Assembly (NCBI RefSeq): GCF_018390555.1
Contig: NZ_JAHBGB010000002.1
Location: 744,001 to 808,000, forward strand
DNA from: Ancylobacter oerskovii
GTDB taxonomy: Bacteria > Pseudomonadota > Alphaproteobacteria > Rhizobiales > Xanthobacteraceae
Direction: 5' to 3'
Length of the DNA stretch: 64,000 nucleotides
Numbering within the stretch: the first letter of the stretch is position 1; each line of letters opens with the position of its first letter. Shown one piece after another: positions 18,354-37,967 of this stretch. The notes under the pieces are model-generated. The model was given only the letters and a program-made list of their open reading frames with translations. It was not told where the DNA came from and searched no databases. The translations under genes were made by a program, and so were the position numbers.

Positions 18354-18433
18354 GTCATGGCCGGGCTTGACCCGGCCATCCACGTCTTGCCGCCGCCGAA
18401 GTCGTGGATGCCCGGCCCAAGGCCGGGCATGAC
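18354..18433. repeat. dispersed palindromic repeat, family A, copy 2
   Basis: Hairpins ATGGCCGGG-CTTGA-CCCGGCCAT and ATGCCCGGCC-CAAG-GCCGGGCAT face each other with the same ATCCACGTCTT/GTGGAT joints as copy 1. It lies in the leader of the DppB-like permease gene, in the 463-bp gap 18303-18765. Confidence 0.83.
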
Positions 18434-18489
18434 GGCCATCCACATGTTGCTCCCGCTACGCCTTCCACGGCGTGCGGCAGTGGGGTGCC

Positions 18490-32851: not shown

Positions 32852-32870
32852 GGCTCCAGAGCGAGGCAGC

Positions 32871-33302
32871 ATGCAGCGCGTGACCGTGACCATCGACGAC
32901 GCGCTGCTCGCCGCCCTCGACGCCCATGCCGCGCGGCACGGCTACGGCAACCGTTCCGAGGCGATCCGCGACGCCCTGCGCACCGCCCTCCTCGGCACCG
33001 ACGCCGCCCCGGCGGCGGACACCGCGCCCTGCGTCGCCACGCTCAGCTATGTCTATGAGCACGAGAAGCGCGAGCTCGCCCGCCGCCTCGCTCAGGTACA
33101 GCACGGCCATCACGACCTCACGGTGGCGGCGCTGCATGTCCATCTCGATCACGGCACCTGCCTCGAGGTCTCGGTGCTGCGCGGGCCGGCCGGCGAGGTG
33201 AAGCAACTCGCCGACGCCGTCGTCACCCAGCGCGGCGTCCGCTACGGGCAGTTGCATCTGGTGCCGGCCGGGGAGGAGCCGCACGCGCATCGGGACGACT
33301 GA
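32871..33302 (+). CDS. nikR: nickel-responsive transcriptional regulator NikR
   Basis: This is a 143-residue ribbon-helix-helix repressor. The N-terminus MQRVTVTIDDALLAALDAHA and NRSEAIRDALRTAL form the DNA-binding fold. The C-terminal ACT-like domain has the nickel ligands in the conserved pattern: H78 of QHGHHD, H89 and H91 in LHVHLDHGTC, and C97. All four match E. coli NikR H76, H87, H89 and C95 with a shift of two. GAGG lies upstream of the ATG. A NikR-like box is found 307 bp downstream, in front of the nickel permease gene, which gives the likely target. Confidence 0.95.
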   Translation: MQRVTVTIDDALLAALDAHAARHGYGNRSEAIRDALRTALLGTDAAPAADTAPCVATLSYVYEHEKRELARRLAQVQHGHHDLTVAALHVHLDHGTCLEVSVLRGPAGEVKQLADAVVTQRGVRYGQLHLVPAGEEPHAHRDD

Positions 33303-33608: not shown

Positions 33609-33636
33609 GTATGCTGATTCAGTCAAATCGTCATAT
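33609..33636 (+). promoter_or_regulatory. NikR-like operator in front of the nickel permease gene
   Basis: GTATGC and TCATAT are separated by exactly 16 bp. The E. coli NikR box is GTATGA-N16-TCATAC, so 10 of 12 bases match at the right spacing. The site is 73 bp before the hupE-like start, next to nikR. Repression of nickel uptake when nickel is plentiful is the expected effect. Confidence 0.65.
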
Positions 33637-33709: not shown

Positions 33710-34336
33710 ATGTCGAATGCCGTCTCCACACGTCTCCGCCGCCACACCGCCCGTGCTGCGCTCGCCGCCGGCTTCGCGCTCGTCCCCGCCCTCGCCTTCG
33801 CCCATCCCGGCCATGGCGAGGCAGCCGGCCTCGTGCACGGCTTCCTGCATCCGATCGGCGGGCTCGACCATGTGCTCGCCATGGTGGCGGTCGGCATCTT
33901 CGCCGCCCAGCTCGGCGGCCGCGCCATCTGGGCGGTGCCGGCCACCTTCGTGGCGCTGATGGCCGCCGGCGGCGCGCTCGGCATGTGGGGCGTCGACCTG
34001 CCCTTCGTCGAGCTCGGCATCGTCGGCTCCATCGTGGCGCTCGGCCTCGTGGTCGCGCTGGGCTGGAAGAACGCGCCGCTCGGCGCCGCCATGGCGCTGG
34101 TCGGTTTCTTCGCGGTGTTCCACGGCCATGCCCATGGCACGGAGATGCCCACCGACGCGTCCGGCCTCGCCTATGCCGCCGGCTTCCTGGCCGCCACGAC
34201 GGTGCTGCACCTCGCCGGCATCGGCATCGGCCTTGCACTCGGCAAGCTCGGCGAGACCCGCGCGCCGCGCCTCACCCAGGCGCTGGGCGCGGTGGTGGCG
34301 GTGGCCGGCCTCGGCCTGCTGTCCGGCGTGATCTGA
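33710..34336 (+). CDS. HupE/UreJ family nickel permease
   Basis: This is an inner-membrane protein of 208 residues. It has a cleavable signal-like first helix ending FAHPGHGEAAG, so the mature N-terminus would carry histidines (HPGHG), and the family signature HPIGGLDHVLAMVAVGIFAA, which contains the metal-binding HPxxGxDH. Several further hydrophobic helices follow, ending in GLGLLSGVI. Members bring nickel (or cobalt) in for urease and hydrogenase. Between nikR and a probable nickel-dependent guanidine hydrolase it is probably the nickel supply of this locus. The start at 33710 was chosen because the signal region begins there; its ribosome site is weak. Confidence 0.9.
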   Translation: MSNAVSTRLRRHTARAALAAGFALVPALAFAHPGHGEAAGLVHGFLHPIGGLDHVLAMVAVGIFAAQLGGRAIWAVPATFVALMAAGGALGMWGVDLPFVELGIVGSIVALGLVVALGWKNAPLGAAMALVGFFAVFHGHAHGTEMPTDASGLAYAAGFLAATTVLHLAGIGIGLALGKLGETRAPRLTQALGAVVAVAGLGLLSGVI

Positions 34337-34375: not shown

Positions 34376-34440
34376 TTCCGGCACGCAGGTGCCGCTATTC
34401 CGGGCTTCCGATCCATCGGGAGCCCGTTTATTTTCGGCAC

Positions 34441-34570
34441 TGTCCCTAGGGTTCCGGCATCGGCGATGCGTCTGGTCCGAGAGGGACAACCCGGCGGCCG
34501 GAGCTTCCTCCCGGAGGTTCGCTCCACCACATGCGCCGGGTCCACGGCGGGATAAAAGCCCGGGAGGCTC
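34441..34570 (+). promoter_or_regulatory. guanidine-I (ykkC) riboswitch
   Basis: The 323-bp leader of the ureohydrolase gene carries the conserved blocks of the guanidine-I aptamer in order: CTAGGGTTCCG (34446-34456), CTGGTCCGAGAG (34472-34483) and ACGGCGGGATAAAAGCCCGG (34544-34563). A first stem is formed by TGTCCCT (34441-34447) with AGGGACA (34482-34488). The class binds guanidinium and switches on guanidine exporters, carboxylases or hydrolases. The expression platform between 34567 and the ribosome site at 34646 is not clear; GCTCGCGCGAGC at 34567-34578 is one palindrome in it. Confidence 0.92.
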
Positions 34571-34659: not shown

Positions 34660-35865
34660 ATGCGTTCCCATCCCACCCGTTCGACCCGTTTCGCCGGCCT
34701 CGCCCCGGCCCCCGCCCGCAAGCGCCGCCACCATCCCAATTTCGAGATCAAGGGAATGCAGGGCTGGAAGGCGCTGGAGGCCGAGGAAGGCCTCTCCGAG
34801 GCCGGCTGGCGCAAGGAACAGCAATGGGCGCTCGACATGGGCCTGCCCGGCGCCGACAGCATCACCGACAAGTCGATCCCGACCTTCGCGCGCGGCGAGC
34901 TGCCGCATTTCGCCGGCATCAACACCTTCCTCAAGGCGCCCTATGTCGAGAATGTCCGCGACGTCGGCAAATATGACGCCGCCGTCATGGGCATTCCGTT
35001 CGACAGCGGCACCACCTATCGCCCCGGCACCCGCTTCGGGCCGCAGGGCATCCGCCGGATCTCCGCGCTCTACACGCCCTACAATTACGAGCTCGGCGTC
35101 GACCTGCGCGAGCAGATGACGCTGTGCGACGTCGGCGACGTGTTCACCATTCCCGCCAATCTGGAAAAGAGCTTCGACCAGATCTCGCGCGGCGTCAGCC
35201 ACGTCTTCTCCTCCGGCGCGCTGCCGATCATGCTGGGCGGCGACCATTCGATCGGCTTTCCCTGCGTGCGCGGCATCGCCGAATGCACCTCCAAGCGCAT
35301 CGGCATCATCCATTTCGACCGCCACATCGACATCCAGGAGAAGGATCTCGACGAGCGGATGCACACCACGCCGTGGTACTGGGCGACCAACCTGCCCAAC
35401 GTCTCGCCGAAGAACCTCGTCCAGCTCGGCATCGGCGGCTGGCAGGTGCCGCGCTACGGCGTGCAGGAGGCGAGGAAGCGCGGCACCAACGTGCTGACCA
35501 TCGACGACATCGAGAAGATCGGGCTGGAGAAGGCCGCCGAGATCGCGCTGGAGCTCGCCTGGAAGGACGCCGACGCGGTGTACATCTCCTTCGACGTCGA
35601 CAGCATCGACTGCGGCTTCGTGCCGGGCACCGGCTGGCCGGAGCCGGGCGGCTTCCTGCCGCGCGAGGCCCTGAAGATCCTCGGCCTCGTCGCCGCCGAG
35701 GGCCTGTGCGGGCTGGAGGTGGTGGAGGTCTCGCCGCCCTACGACACCTCCGACATCACCGCCCTGTTCGGGCTGCGCGTCGTCGTCGAGGCGCTCGGCT
35801 CGATGGTGGCGCACGGCAAGATGGGCGCCCACAGGCACATCATCGACAAGCCGGTGAATTTCTGA
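34660..35865 (+). CDS. ureohydrolase, probable nickel-dependent guanidine hydrolase (GdmH type)
   Basis: This 401-residue enzyme has all ureohydrolase metal ligands: GGDHS (residues 193-197, H196), DRHID (D220, H222, D224) and SFDVDSID (D312, D314). Arginases and agmatinases usually read DAHxD; here it is DRHIDIQEKDLDERMHTTPW, and the third motif continues CGFVPGTGWPEPGG. As far as I recall, these features and the extended N-terminus (about 90 residues before the fold) are those of the Synechocystis guanidine hydrolase, which releases urea and ammonia and needs nickel. The guanidine riboswitch upstream, the nickel permease and NikR before it, and the histidine-rich gene after it all agree. 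Public pipelines would probably call it agmatinase. AAGGAG (34646-34651) precedes the ATG. Confidence 0.85.
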   Translation: MRSHPTRSTRFAGLAPAPARKRRHHPNFEIKGMQGWKALEAEEGLSEAGWRKEQQWALDMGLPGADSITDKSIPTFARGELPHFAGINTFLKAPYVENVRDVGKYDAAVMGIPFDSGTTYRPGTRFGPQGIRRISALYTPYNYELGVDLREQMTLCDVGDVFTIPANLEKSFDQISRGVSHVFSSGALPIMLGGDHSIGFPCVRGIAECTSKRIGIIHFDRHIDIQEKDLDERMHTTPWYWATNLPNVSPKNLVQLGIGGWQVPRYGVQEARKRGTNVLTIDDIEKIGLEKAAEIALELAWKDADAVYISFDVDSIDCGFVPGTGWPEPGGFLPREALKILGLVAAEGLCGLEVVEVSPPYDTSDITALFGLRVVVEALGSMVAHGKMGAHRHIIDKPVNF

Positions 35866-35895
35866 GGCGGTTCGTCGCTCTTCAAACAGTGCGCC

Positions 35896-35984
35896 GTCAT
35901 GCCCGGGCTCGGCCCGGGCATCCACGACTTCAGCGAAGCACACCGGCGCAAGACGTGGATGGCCGGGTCAAGCCCGGCCATGAC
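35896..35984. repeat. dispersed palindromic repeat, family A, copy 4
   Basis: Hairpins ATGCCCGGG-CTCGG-CCCGGGCAT and ATGGCCGGG-TCAAG-CCCGGCCAT, with ATCCACGACTT and GTGGAT joints, fill the gap between the guanidine hydrolase and the histidine-rich gene. If both genes are on one mRNA the hairpins lie between them. Confidence 0.83.
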
Positions 35985-36030: not shown

Positions 36031-36546
36031 ATGCATCGCGGACACGACCACGATCATCCTCACGACCACGGCGCGGGAAGCCACACTCACGGCCATGCCC
36101 ACGCCCATGCCCACAGCCACTCCCACGCCGGGCACAATCACGGCCACGGCCCGGCCCGCGTCGCCCAGTGGCAGACCCCGCATTTGCCCGATGCCCCGCC
36201 GCCGGAGGATCACCATCACGACGAGCCCGATCTCGACCTCGTCGAGCAGGCCTTCGTCGAGGGCTTCGCGAGCGCCTCGGATCCCACCAGCTTCCTGCGC
36301 CTCGCCCGCGTGCCCTTCGACGCCCGCGCCGAGGACGGCACGCGCCTCAGCCTGCTGCGGGTGGAAAGCCATGCCGCCACCGATGTCGGCGCGGTGATGC
36401 CGCATCTGGGCGGCGGCAGCTTCCGCTACGATCCCTTGCCGAAAGCCATGGTGTCGCGCCGCCAGCAGCTGCGCTTCGTCTATTTCGACGGCGCGGCCAC
36501 GCGCGCGCTGCCGCTGGCGCAAGTGCGCAAGCTGACGGAGATCTAA
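36031..36546 (+). CDS. protein with histidine-rich N-terminus, possible nickel chaperone for guanidine hydrolase
   Basis: I do not recognise the family of this 171-residue protein. About 17 of the first 40 residues are histidine, in HxHxH runs (DHDHPHDHG, GHAHAHAHSHSHAGH), and a second cluster EDHHHDEP lies near residue 65. The remaining 105 residues form a compact-looking domain (LDLVEQAFVEGFASASDPTS, FLRLARVPFDARAEDG, RQQLRFVYFDGAATRALPLA) without signal peptide, membrane helix or CxxC zinc motif. Histidine tails like this store or pass nickel in HypB, UreE and similar chaperones. It follows the probable guanidine hydrolase by 165 bp. A role as nickel donor or store for that enzyme is inference, but well supported by position. 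Confidence 0.85.
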   Translation: MHRGHDHDHPHDHGAGSHTHGHAHAHAHSHSHAGHNHGHGPARVAQWQTPHLPDAPPPEDHHHDEPDLDLVEQAFVEGFASASDPTSFLRLARVPFDARAEDGTRLSLLRVESHAATDVGAVMPHLGGGSFRYDPLPKAMVSRRQQLRFVYFDGAATRALPLAQVRKLTEI

Positions 36547-36650: not shown

Positions 36651-36740
36651 CAAAGTTCATCTTGCCCGCGACGCCCGTCGGGGCGGGCGGCCGCCGGCAT
36701 GACGGCCACGCCTGCCCGGCGAAGCAGAGTGGATGCATTG

Positions 36741-37967
36741 ATGGATTATACCCGGATCTTCGAAGCCGCCGTCGAGACGTTGAAGAGCGAGCGGCGCTAC
36801 CGCACCTTCGCGGAGATCGAGCGCGACGTCGCCCGCTTCCCGCGCGCCACCTGGCATTCGCCGAAGGGCGCCCGCGAGATCGTCATCTGGTGCTCGAACG
36901 ATTATCTGGGCATGGGATGCCATGAGAGCGTCGTCGAGGCGATGTGCGCCTCCGCCCGCACGGTCGGCGCCGGCGCCGGCGGCACCCGCAACATTTCCGG
37001 CAACAGCCACGCCATCGTCGAACTGGAGCGCGAGCTCGCCGACCTTCACGGCAAGGAGGCCGGCCTCGTCTTCACCTCCGGCTACATCTCCAACGAGACC
37101 GGCATCTCGACCCTCGCCCGGCTGATCCCGGACTGCCTGATCCTTTCCGACGCGCTCAACCACAATTCGATGATCGAGGGCGTGCGCCATGCCGGGCGCG
37201 ACAAGGCGGTGTTCCGCCACAACGACCTCGCCCATCTGGAGCAGCTGCTCGCGGGCGCCGGCGACCGGCCGAAGCTGGTGGTGTTCGAGAGCGTCTATTC
37301 GATGGATGGCGACGTGGCGCCGATCGGCGCCATCTGCGATCTCGCCGAGAAATACGGCGCCATGACCTATCTCGACGAGGTGCACGCGGTCGGCATGTAC
37401 GGCCCGCGCGGCGCCGGCCTCGCCGAGCGCGACGGGGTGATGCACCGGGTCGACGTCATCGAGGGCACGCTGGGCAAGGCCTTCGGCGTGGTCGGCGGCT
37501 ACATCACGGGCAAGCGGGCGGTGATCGACGCCGTGCGCTCCTATGCGCCGGGCTTCATCTTCACCACCGCCCTGCCGCCGGCGGTCGCCGCCGCGGCCGC
37601 CGCCTCGGTGCGCCATCTCAAGGCGTCGAGCGTCGAGCGCGACCGCCAGCAGGAGCAGGTCGCCAAGGTGAAGAACGCCTTCGAGGCCGCCGGCCTGCCG
37701 CTCGTCGTCACCGACACCCACATCGTGCCGGTGATGGTGGGCGATGCCGAGCTGTGCAAGGCCGCGAGCGACCTGCTGCTCGCCGAGCACGGCATCTACA
37801 TCCAGCCGATCAACTATCCCACCGTGCCCCGCGGCACCGAGCGGCTGCGCATCACCCCCGGCCCGCGGCACGACGACGCCCTCGTCGAGGCGCTCACCGC
37901 GGCGATGGTGGATGTGTGGACACGGCTCGGCCTGCGCTTCGTCACGCAGGCGGAAGCGGCCGAATAG
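36741..37967 (+). CDS. hemA: 5-aminolevulinate synthase
   Basis: This enzyme makes 5-aminolevulinate from glycine and succinyl-CoA, the first step of tetrapyrrole synthesis by the C4 route of alphaproteobacteria. The 408-residue protein has the start [20 protein letters not shown], the glycine/CoA region [32 protein letters not shown] with the PLP-binding aspartate, and [17 protein letters not shown], whose lysine (about residue 246) binds PLP. The start at 36741 is at the conserved N-terminus. Succinyl-CoA is also the product of the mutase operon at the window start. The gene is convergent with the AbrB-type membrane protein. Confidence 0.96.

Follow-up and report, generated by a model that had tools for sequence, protein, structure and literature searches.

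A histidine-rich protein of an unnamed family, encoded directly behind guanidine hydrolase, is a predicted dedicated nickel metallochaperone of that enzyme

How does a guanidine hydrolase acquire nickel in a bacterium that appears to lack the maturation proteins described for it? Guanidine hydrolase (GdmH), a nickel enzyme discovered not long ago, has GhaA and GhaB as known helpers, which are homologous to HypA and HypB. According to excerpts of the respective papers, GdmH activation requires GhaAB (PMC11271267), the operon of GdmH encodes GhaA and GhaB for maturation (PMC12930504), hypA and hypB are among the genes of guanidine-riboswitch operons (PMC8390497), and the metformin and dimethylguanidine hydrolases MefH and DmgH depend on HypA/HypB (PMC11399263). 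The excerpted text of PMC11271267 further reports that its own MetAB chaperones made no significant difference in extracts, yet were needed for growth on metformin, and that of PMC11410670 describes the guanidinase of the comammox bacterium Nitrospira inopinata as active at partial nickel occupancy when made without any co-expressed chaperone, and calls the nickel loading of this enzyme unclear.

The window, a 64,000-nucleotide stretch of Ancylobacter oerskovii DNA, carries on its + strand and in this order nikR, a HupE/UreJ gene, a guanidine-I riboswitch, gdmH, the open reading frame at issue and hemA. The nickel-responsive regulator gene nikR (32868-33302; PF08753, and TIGR02793 over cut-off) is followed by that of the HupE/UreJ nickel permease (33710-34336; PF04955, E 1.7e-56), for which the longest ORF begins at 33611 and position 33710 marks a Met ahead of a signal-like stretch. 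The riboswitch aptamer (34435-34568; Rfam RF00442, 86.4 bits) precedes gdmH (34660-35865), which encodes an arginase-family protein of 401 residues. We identify this protein as a Ni-dependent guanidine hydrolase because its two best solved relatives are guanidinases, namely Synechocystis GdmH (7esr/7oi1, E 4.5e-162) and the Nitrospira inopinata enzyme (9fek), and because it has the guanidinase residues Thr118/119, His235 and Trp326; both the organism names and the Thr, His, Trp criterion follow the excerpted text of PMC11410670. The next ORF (36031-36546), here called hisR, and its product HisR, as a label of convenience, starts with ATG, encodes 171 residues of no named family and is followed downstream by hemA (36699-37967). 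Co-transcription of gdmH and hisR in the window is uncertain because the two are separated by 165 nt that contain a palindromic repeat (35895-35926, + strand). This 32-base element is dispersed, and we regard it as context outside the system: the window holds it at 1630-1661, 18403-18434 and 35895-35926, as two exact copies and one with 3 mismatches, where zero copies are expected by chance.

HisR contains 23 His and no Cys, and its 17 His within residues 1-40 make it the protein with the highest His count per 40-residue stretch (runner-up 12) among the 215 window ORFs of at least 100 aa. The N-terminal tract proper (residues 1-39, 36031-36147, with all 17 His) is predicted to be disordered, the AF2 model giving residues 1-40 block-mean pLDDT values of 40-60 and no secondary structure. 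It includes a GHNH motif (residues 34-37, 36130-36141) and is followed by a QWQTPH motif (residues 46-51, 36166-36183) and by a second His cluster (residues 61-63, 36211-36219). Residues 65-171 (36223-36543), in turn, are modeled by AF2 as a compact fold of two helices and a small beta-barrel (pLDDT 89.9, pTM 0.75), which we consider a putative docking domain. The first-pass annotation of this DNA had pointed to about 17 His among the 40 leading residues, to a further cluster and to a compact domain that it could not place; both His clusters are indeed present, the structure prediction it had proposed for residues 65-171 returns a compact domain, and Pfam and NCBIfam give zero matches at E<=1.

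The protein belongs to a large family nonetheless lacking a name. A database search with residues 60-171 retrieved 1287 proteins at E<=0.001, and a member of a second subfamily used as query retrieved 1275 relatives, a set that may overlap with the first. None of the 120 relatives among the matches listed (of 1287) carries a precomputed Pfam domain, neither the window protein nor its C-terminal half matches Pfam, NCBIfam or PHROGs, and a set of 25 diverse members likewise yields no Pfam or NCBIfam match at E<=0.1. A DUF2470 label that one source attaches to relative P0044 was set aside, as the same locus (L004) is among those 25 members and matches no Pfam model; the annotation of a Limimaricola variabilis plasmid simply lists HisR as a hypothetical protein. 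A PDB profile search gave no credible chain for the family, and ThyX was discarded as a candidate, with weak matches only (E about 0.5) that run through the His tag. Fold searches with two predicted models also returned no confident PDB match: the matches were weak overall, the weak rows were mostly Tudor/SH3-like barrels, and UreE, HypA and SlyD were absent among the matches listed. The possibility, considered beforehand, that the C-terminal domain belongs to a family unrelated to metals found no such family. Comparisons with individual nickel helpers point the same way. PF01155 (HypA) is matched by 0/25 members and the profile comparison against one HypA has a probability of 0.3%; the P-loop GTPase domain of HypB/CobW (PF02492) has no match, with a probability of 0.4% against one HypB; and UreE_N and UreE_C have no match, with a probability of 0.1% against one UreE of the window's genome. 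The zinc site of HypA is built of Cys pairs, which the Cys-free window protein does not have. The HisR family is unannotated and, by any sequence test run, is not HypA, HypB or UreE.

Two subfamilies can be told apart by their layout. In subfamily 1, GHN is followed by QWQTPH and by a domain starting with DLDLVE, whereas in subfamily 2, in which many of the named hits are Rhodobacterales, GHN is followed usually by LHSH and then by the same domain, which is about 30% identical; a profile termed A2 took in 7 of 8 subfamily-2 proteins. QWQxPH is present in 79/80 subfamily-1 loci, and QWQTPH is absent from subfamily 2. In a 25-row alignment covering both subfamilies invariance is limited to M1, G34, N36 and eight residues of the domain, with H35 kept in 24/25 members, and the C-terminal domain has D84 as its sole invariant Asp and no His or Cys conserved in both subfamilies. 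GHN itself is kept in 77/80 loci and occurs in both subfamilies. The His tract, on the other hand, varies: the median is 14.5 His before the QWQ motif (80 loci), one locus (L077) has a single His there, and some members of subfamily 2, for example L135 and L137, have short, His-poor N-terminal starts. These His-poor members retain both the GHN-plus-domain core and the position behind gdmH, which speaks for an auxiliary role of the tract and for the core as the essential part.

To describe the genomic context of the family, we used a sample of 150 genomes of the host's order and a sample of 397 genomes of its phylum, neither chosen for hisR, as well as a scan of named genomes, in which 99 relatives were found and 80 kept as loci, the other 19 being left out of all counts over 80. 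In the order sample hisR occurs in 20/150 genomes, and in 20/20 of these the gene immediately upstream, in the same orientation, is gdmH, although three of these gdmH matches (L091, L095, L102) break off well before the N-terminus; GdmH-like matches at E<=1e-60 are found in 24/150 genomes, and their co-occurrence with hisR has a Fisher p of 2.9e-21. In the phylum sample hisR and gdmH are each present in 10/397 genomes, the identical ten, and are adjacent on one strand in all of them. Two genomes (G000, G072) are common to both samples, which leaves 28 distinct carriers, and gdmH adjoins hisR in 28/28. In the named genomes gdmH lies directly upstream of hisR in 79/80 loci, counts that are not independent of the above since some species occur both in the random samples and in the named scan (L129, L130 and L132 resemble L055, L067 and L042). 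The remaining locus, L029, was weighed as a counter-example and rejected, as its gdmH is present on the opposite strand at a distance of 7 kb. In the four GdmH-like enzymes that lack hisR, Thr or Ser takes the place of the guanidinase Trp, so that, by this criterion, every guanidinase in both samples has hisR and no hisR occurs without a guanidinase. The co-occurrence with GdmH that had been put forward as a check on the earlier annotation is thus observed in all carriers of both samples (20/20 and 10/10, gdmH directly upstream), and hisR is tied to one enzyme in all genomes examined.

A separate observation concerns the GdmH-like ureohydrolases L124, L126, L127 and L128 (genomes G127, G035, G075 and G073), which have neither hisR nor the guanidinase Trp and carry a His-rich insert before a PKNLVQ stretch. 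The insert reads HSHGPGQHHDHSHMHDVG in L126 and is shorter in L124. L124 and L128 adjoin nickel-type permeases, one a HupE by Pfam and the other NicO-like by eye with no Pfam hit. Such enzymes may have a nickel loop of their own built in.

Other neighbors are less constant than gdmH. A guanidine-I riboswitch scores over the gathering threshold in 22/25 loci tested and is missing in L076, L077 and L028, the last of which is cut short. Outside Ancylobacter the usual order is riboswitch, ABC transporter, gdmH and hisR, often with hupE. Over the named loci as a whole, the gap between gdmH and hisR has a median of 12 nt, with at most 25 nt in 51/79. Across the 80 loci we count substrate-binding genes in 51, permeases in 49 and ATPases in 38, their function read from sequence, and HupE in 36 (flanks up to 6 kb); transporter and HupE presence varies between loci while gdmH is constant. 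On the Limimaricola variabilis plasmid the neighbors are annotated as ABC transporter genes, and there is an 11-nt overlap between gdmH and hisR. Two further candidate partners were rejected on these grounds: HemA, because hemA adjoins hisR only in L001-L022 (Ancylobacter and close relatives), a further match in L061 being 34% identical and 2.5 kb away, and the ABC transporter, because hisR persists in all of the 21 loci L002-L022 where the substrate-binding gene is kept in just two (L009, L010). By-eye inspection of the ORFs between 30.7 and 38 kb of the window likewise shows no ABC transporter gene. In the window nikR and HupE sit directly upstream of the riboswitch, and nikR is found in just 6/80 loci, all within L002-L022, so that the nickel-sensing neighbor is a local feature of certain Ancylobacter-like genomes. 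Plasmids, too, can carry riboswitch, gdmH and hisR together, as do Sinorhizobium fredii psfSMH12a (L153) and Limimaricola NZ_CP139692.1 (L152), the two plasmids from which gene content was taken; hisR is matched in six plasmid records, of which five are predicted conjugative.

The two subfamilies of HisR are mirrored in the enzymes that they accompany. In a GdmH tree of 103 rows (of 115 loci, after exclusion of rows shorter than 250 residues, identical rows and L029, which had no hit), the 86 subfamily-1-linked, 13 subfamily-2-linked and 4 unlinked enzymes each fall on one side of a branch, with support of 84, 88 and 100, respectively, the first two being moderate. The subfamily labels of five Rhodobacterales-like rows from the phylum sample were checked after the tree was made. 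One alphaproteobacterial metagenome-assembled genome, G528, has two gdmH genes, one followed by a subfamily-1 hisR and the other by a subfamily-2 hisR (L147 and L148); the placement of its subfamily-1-linked GdmH (L147) is unsure, as this long branch joins another one, that of L123, whose place is equally unsure. The two gene pairs of G528 represent a natural test of pairing specificity.

Taken together, we consider it probable that the ORF behind gdmH, as a member of this unnamed family, encodes a dedicated nickel metallochaperone of GdmH. The linkage to the gene of a nickel-enzyme client, which is looked for in a nickel metallochaperone, is found for hisR and gdmH; nickel binding, docking and insertion by HisR we infer from it and from the features of the protein. 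Speaking against this reading are the variability of the His tract, the lack of a C-terminal His or Cys shared by both subfamilies, the two loci in which no riboswitch was detected (L076, L077), and the activity of the N. inopinata guanidinase, at partial nickel occupancy, when produced without a chaperone (PMC11410670). An unlikely alternative is that HisR is an assembly or stability factor of the GdmH hexamer, with GdmH held or folded by the C-terminal domain and a secondary, scavenging (for metal) or scaffolding role left to the His tract. Such a factor would suit a conserved folded domain next to a variable tract and the presence of GdmH as partner throughout both samples, but the retention of GHN in 77/80 loci and both subfamilies, as well as the clustering of nickel genes around the locus, speaks against it.

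Nickel storage or detoxification, in which HisR would soak up HupE-imported nickel and release it slowly without contacting GdmH, we regard as quite improbable. Most members are His-rich, with the median tract given above, and HupE lies near hisR in 36/80 loci, as expected of a store; a general store, however, should also adjoin urease or hydrogenase genes, yet gdmH is the neighbor in 28/28 carriers, pairing is subtype-specific in G528, the sole genome with two copies, and the folded domain rather than the tract is the conserved part. The proteins Hpn and Hpn-2 of gastric Helicobacter represent a storage type that is almost wholly His-rich and is not known to have a conserved folded domain. 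As far as the excerpted text of PMC4671568 describes them, HisR resembles these proteins in being small, His-rich and, by prediction, nickel-binding, and differs from them in its fixed partner gene and in its conserved domain of 107 residues, modeled with a pLDDT of 89.9. The earlier proposal of a nickel-insertion or storage factor for guanidine hydrolase therefore fares unevenly: the link to gdmH is far stronger than that annotation could tell, while storage is less likely than delivery because His-poor members keep the GHN-plus-domain core and the place behind gdmH.

If HisR is instead a delivery protein, the question becomes what it delivers nickel in place of, or together with. The first-pass annotation had stated that neither HypA nor HypB is encoded near the gene, and this holds for the entire genome of the window (99.76% complete), where HypA (PF01155) has no match and HypB (TIGR00073) has three, none over cut-off and two of them UreG genes. 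Among those 20 of the 28 carriers that belong to the order sample, HypA is found in 5 (two as partial matches) and HypB in 4, by coordinates never beside gdmH. With HypA absent in 15/20 and HypB in 16/20 carriers, GdmH mostly must obtain its nickel without them, and the best reading is that HisR stands in for HypA/HypB (GhaA/GhaB) at GdmH. The idea of a helper type that replaces HypA/HypB is upheld as to their absence and not as to mutual exclusion, for carriers are neither richer nor poorer in HypA and HypB than other genomes (p 1.0 and 0.59).

UreG, by comparison, is enriched in the order sample (19/20 carriers vs 82/130 others, p 0.004) and is a possible helper, though the enrichment may mean no more than that urea from GdmH feeds urease. 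A HisR that acts as an adaptor for UreG or another G3E GTPase and brings nickel to GdmH with it, as HypA does with HypB, is very unlikely: the enrichment and the two UreG genes of the window's genome speak for it, but urea, the GdmH product, is enough alone to explain the urease genes, and carrier G028 has no match to UreG, HypA or HypB, albeit not as a clean case because its GdmH shows no match over the first 107 residues. UreE, UreF and UreG are clustered at two separate places in the genome of the window (L082 on contig 12 and L083 on contig 24), and the UreE of both has a long His tail.

Nickel-enzyme helpers are a known kind of protein, and the HisR family itself is unannotated. It shares with the GhaA/GhaB of cyanobacterial GdmH operons, said in excerpts of PMC12930504 and PMC11271267 to mature the nickel enzyme, that it is encoded with GdmH, and differs from them in having no HypA, HypB or CobW match, no Cys and no GTPase domain. 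The HypA/HypB of MefH/DmgH are likewise nickel helpers encoded beside a nickel ureohydrolase with HupE near (PMC11399263, in its excerpted text), whereas HisR is unrelated to them in sequence, is a single gene and lies downstream rather than upstream of the enzyme gene. UreE is a nickel chaperone with a His-rich tail, which both UreE of the window's genome have, whereas the tract of HisR is N-terminal, UreE_N and UreE_C are not matched and the neighbor is gdmH instead of urease. A literature search, with the primary GdmH paper (10.1038/s41586-022-04490-x) outside its reach, returned, among the papers listed, no description of a His-rich GdmH partner.

We therefore propose a model for HisR as a dedicated metallochaperone in which guanidine would open the riboswitch, so that gdmH and hisR could be made together where the genes nearly touch, and nickel would enter via HupE. 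Collecting Ni(II) would fall to the disordered His tract together with GHN, with the qualification that His-rich tracts bind Zn, Co and Cu too. The C-terminal domain would dock on newly made apo-GdmH, as suggested by the 51/79 loci in which the genes are so closely spaced, and Ni(II) would then be handed to the two-metal site of GdmH, so that the enzyme would carry nickel instead of manganese, the customary metal of its family; a GTPase such as UreG may take part.

In a bolder form, to which we give somewhat less than an even chance, HisR would add a third system of nickel insertion to Hyp and Ure: small, GTPase-free and guanidine-induced, loading two nickel ions into a manganese-type ureohydrolase by means of a disordered metal-collecting tract, GHN and a previously unseen docking domain, and having replaced HypA/HypB for guanidine use across Alphaproteobacteria. 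At the strength of the present data, the HisR family offers a concrete, testable answer to how the guanidinase of Alphaproteobacteria without GhaA/GhaB is supplied with nickel, and co-expression of hisR may be needed for a fully active alphaproteobacterial guanidinase.
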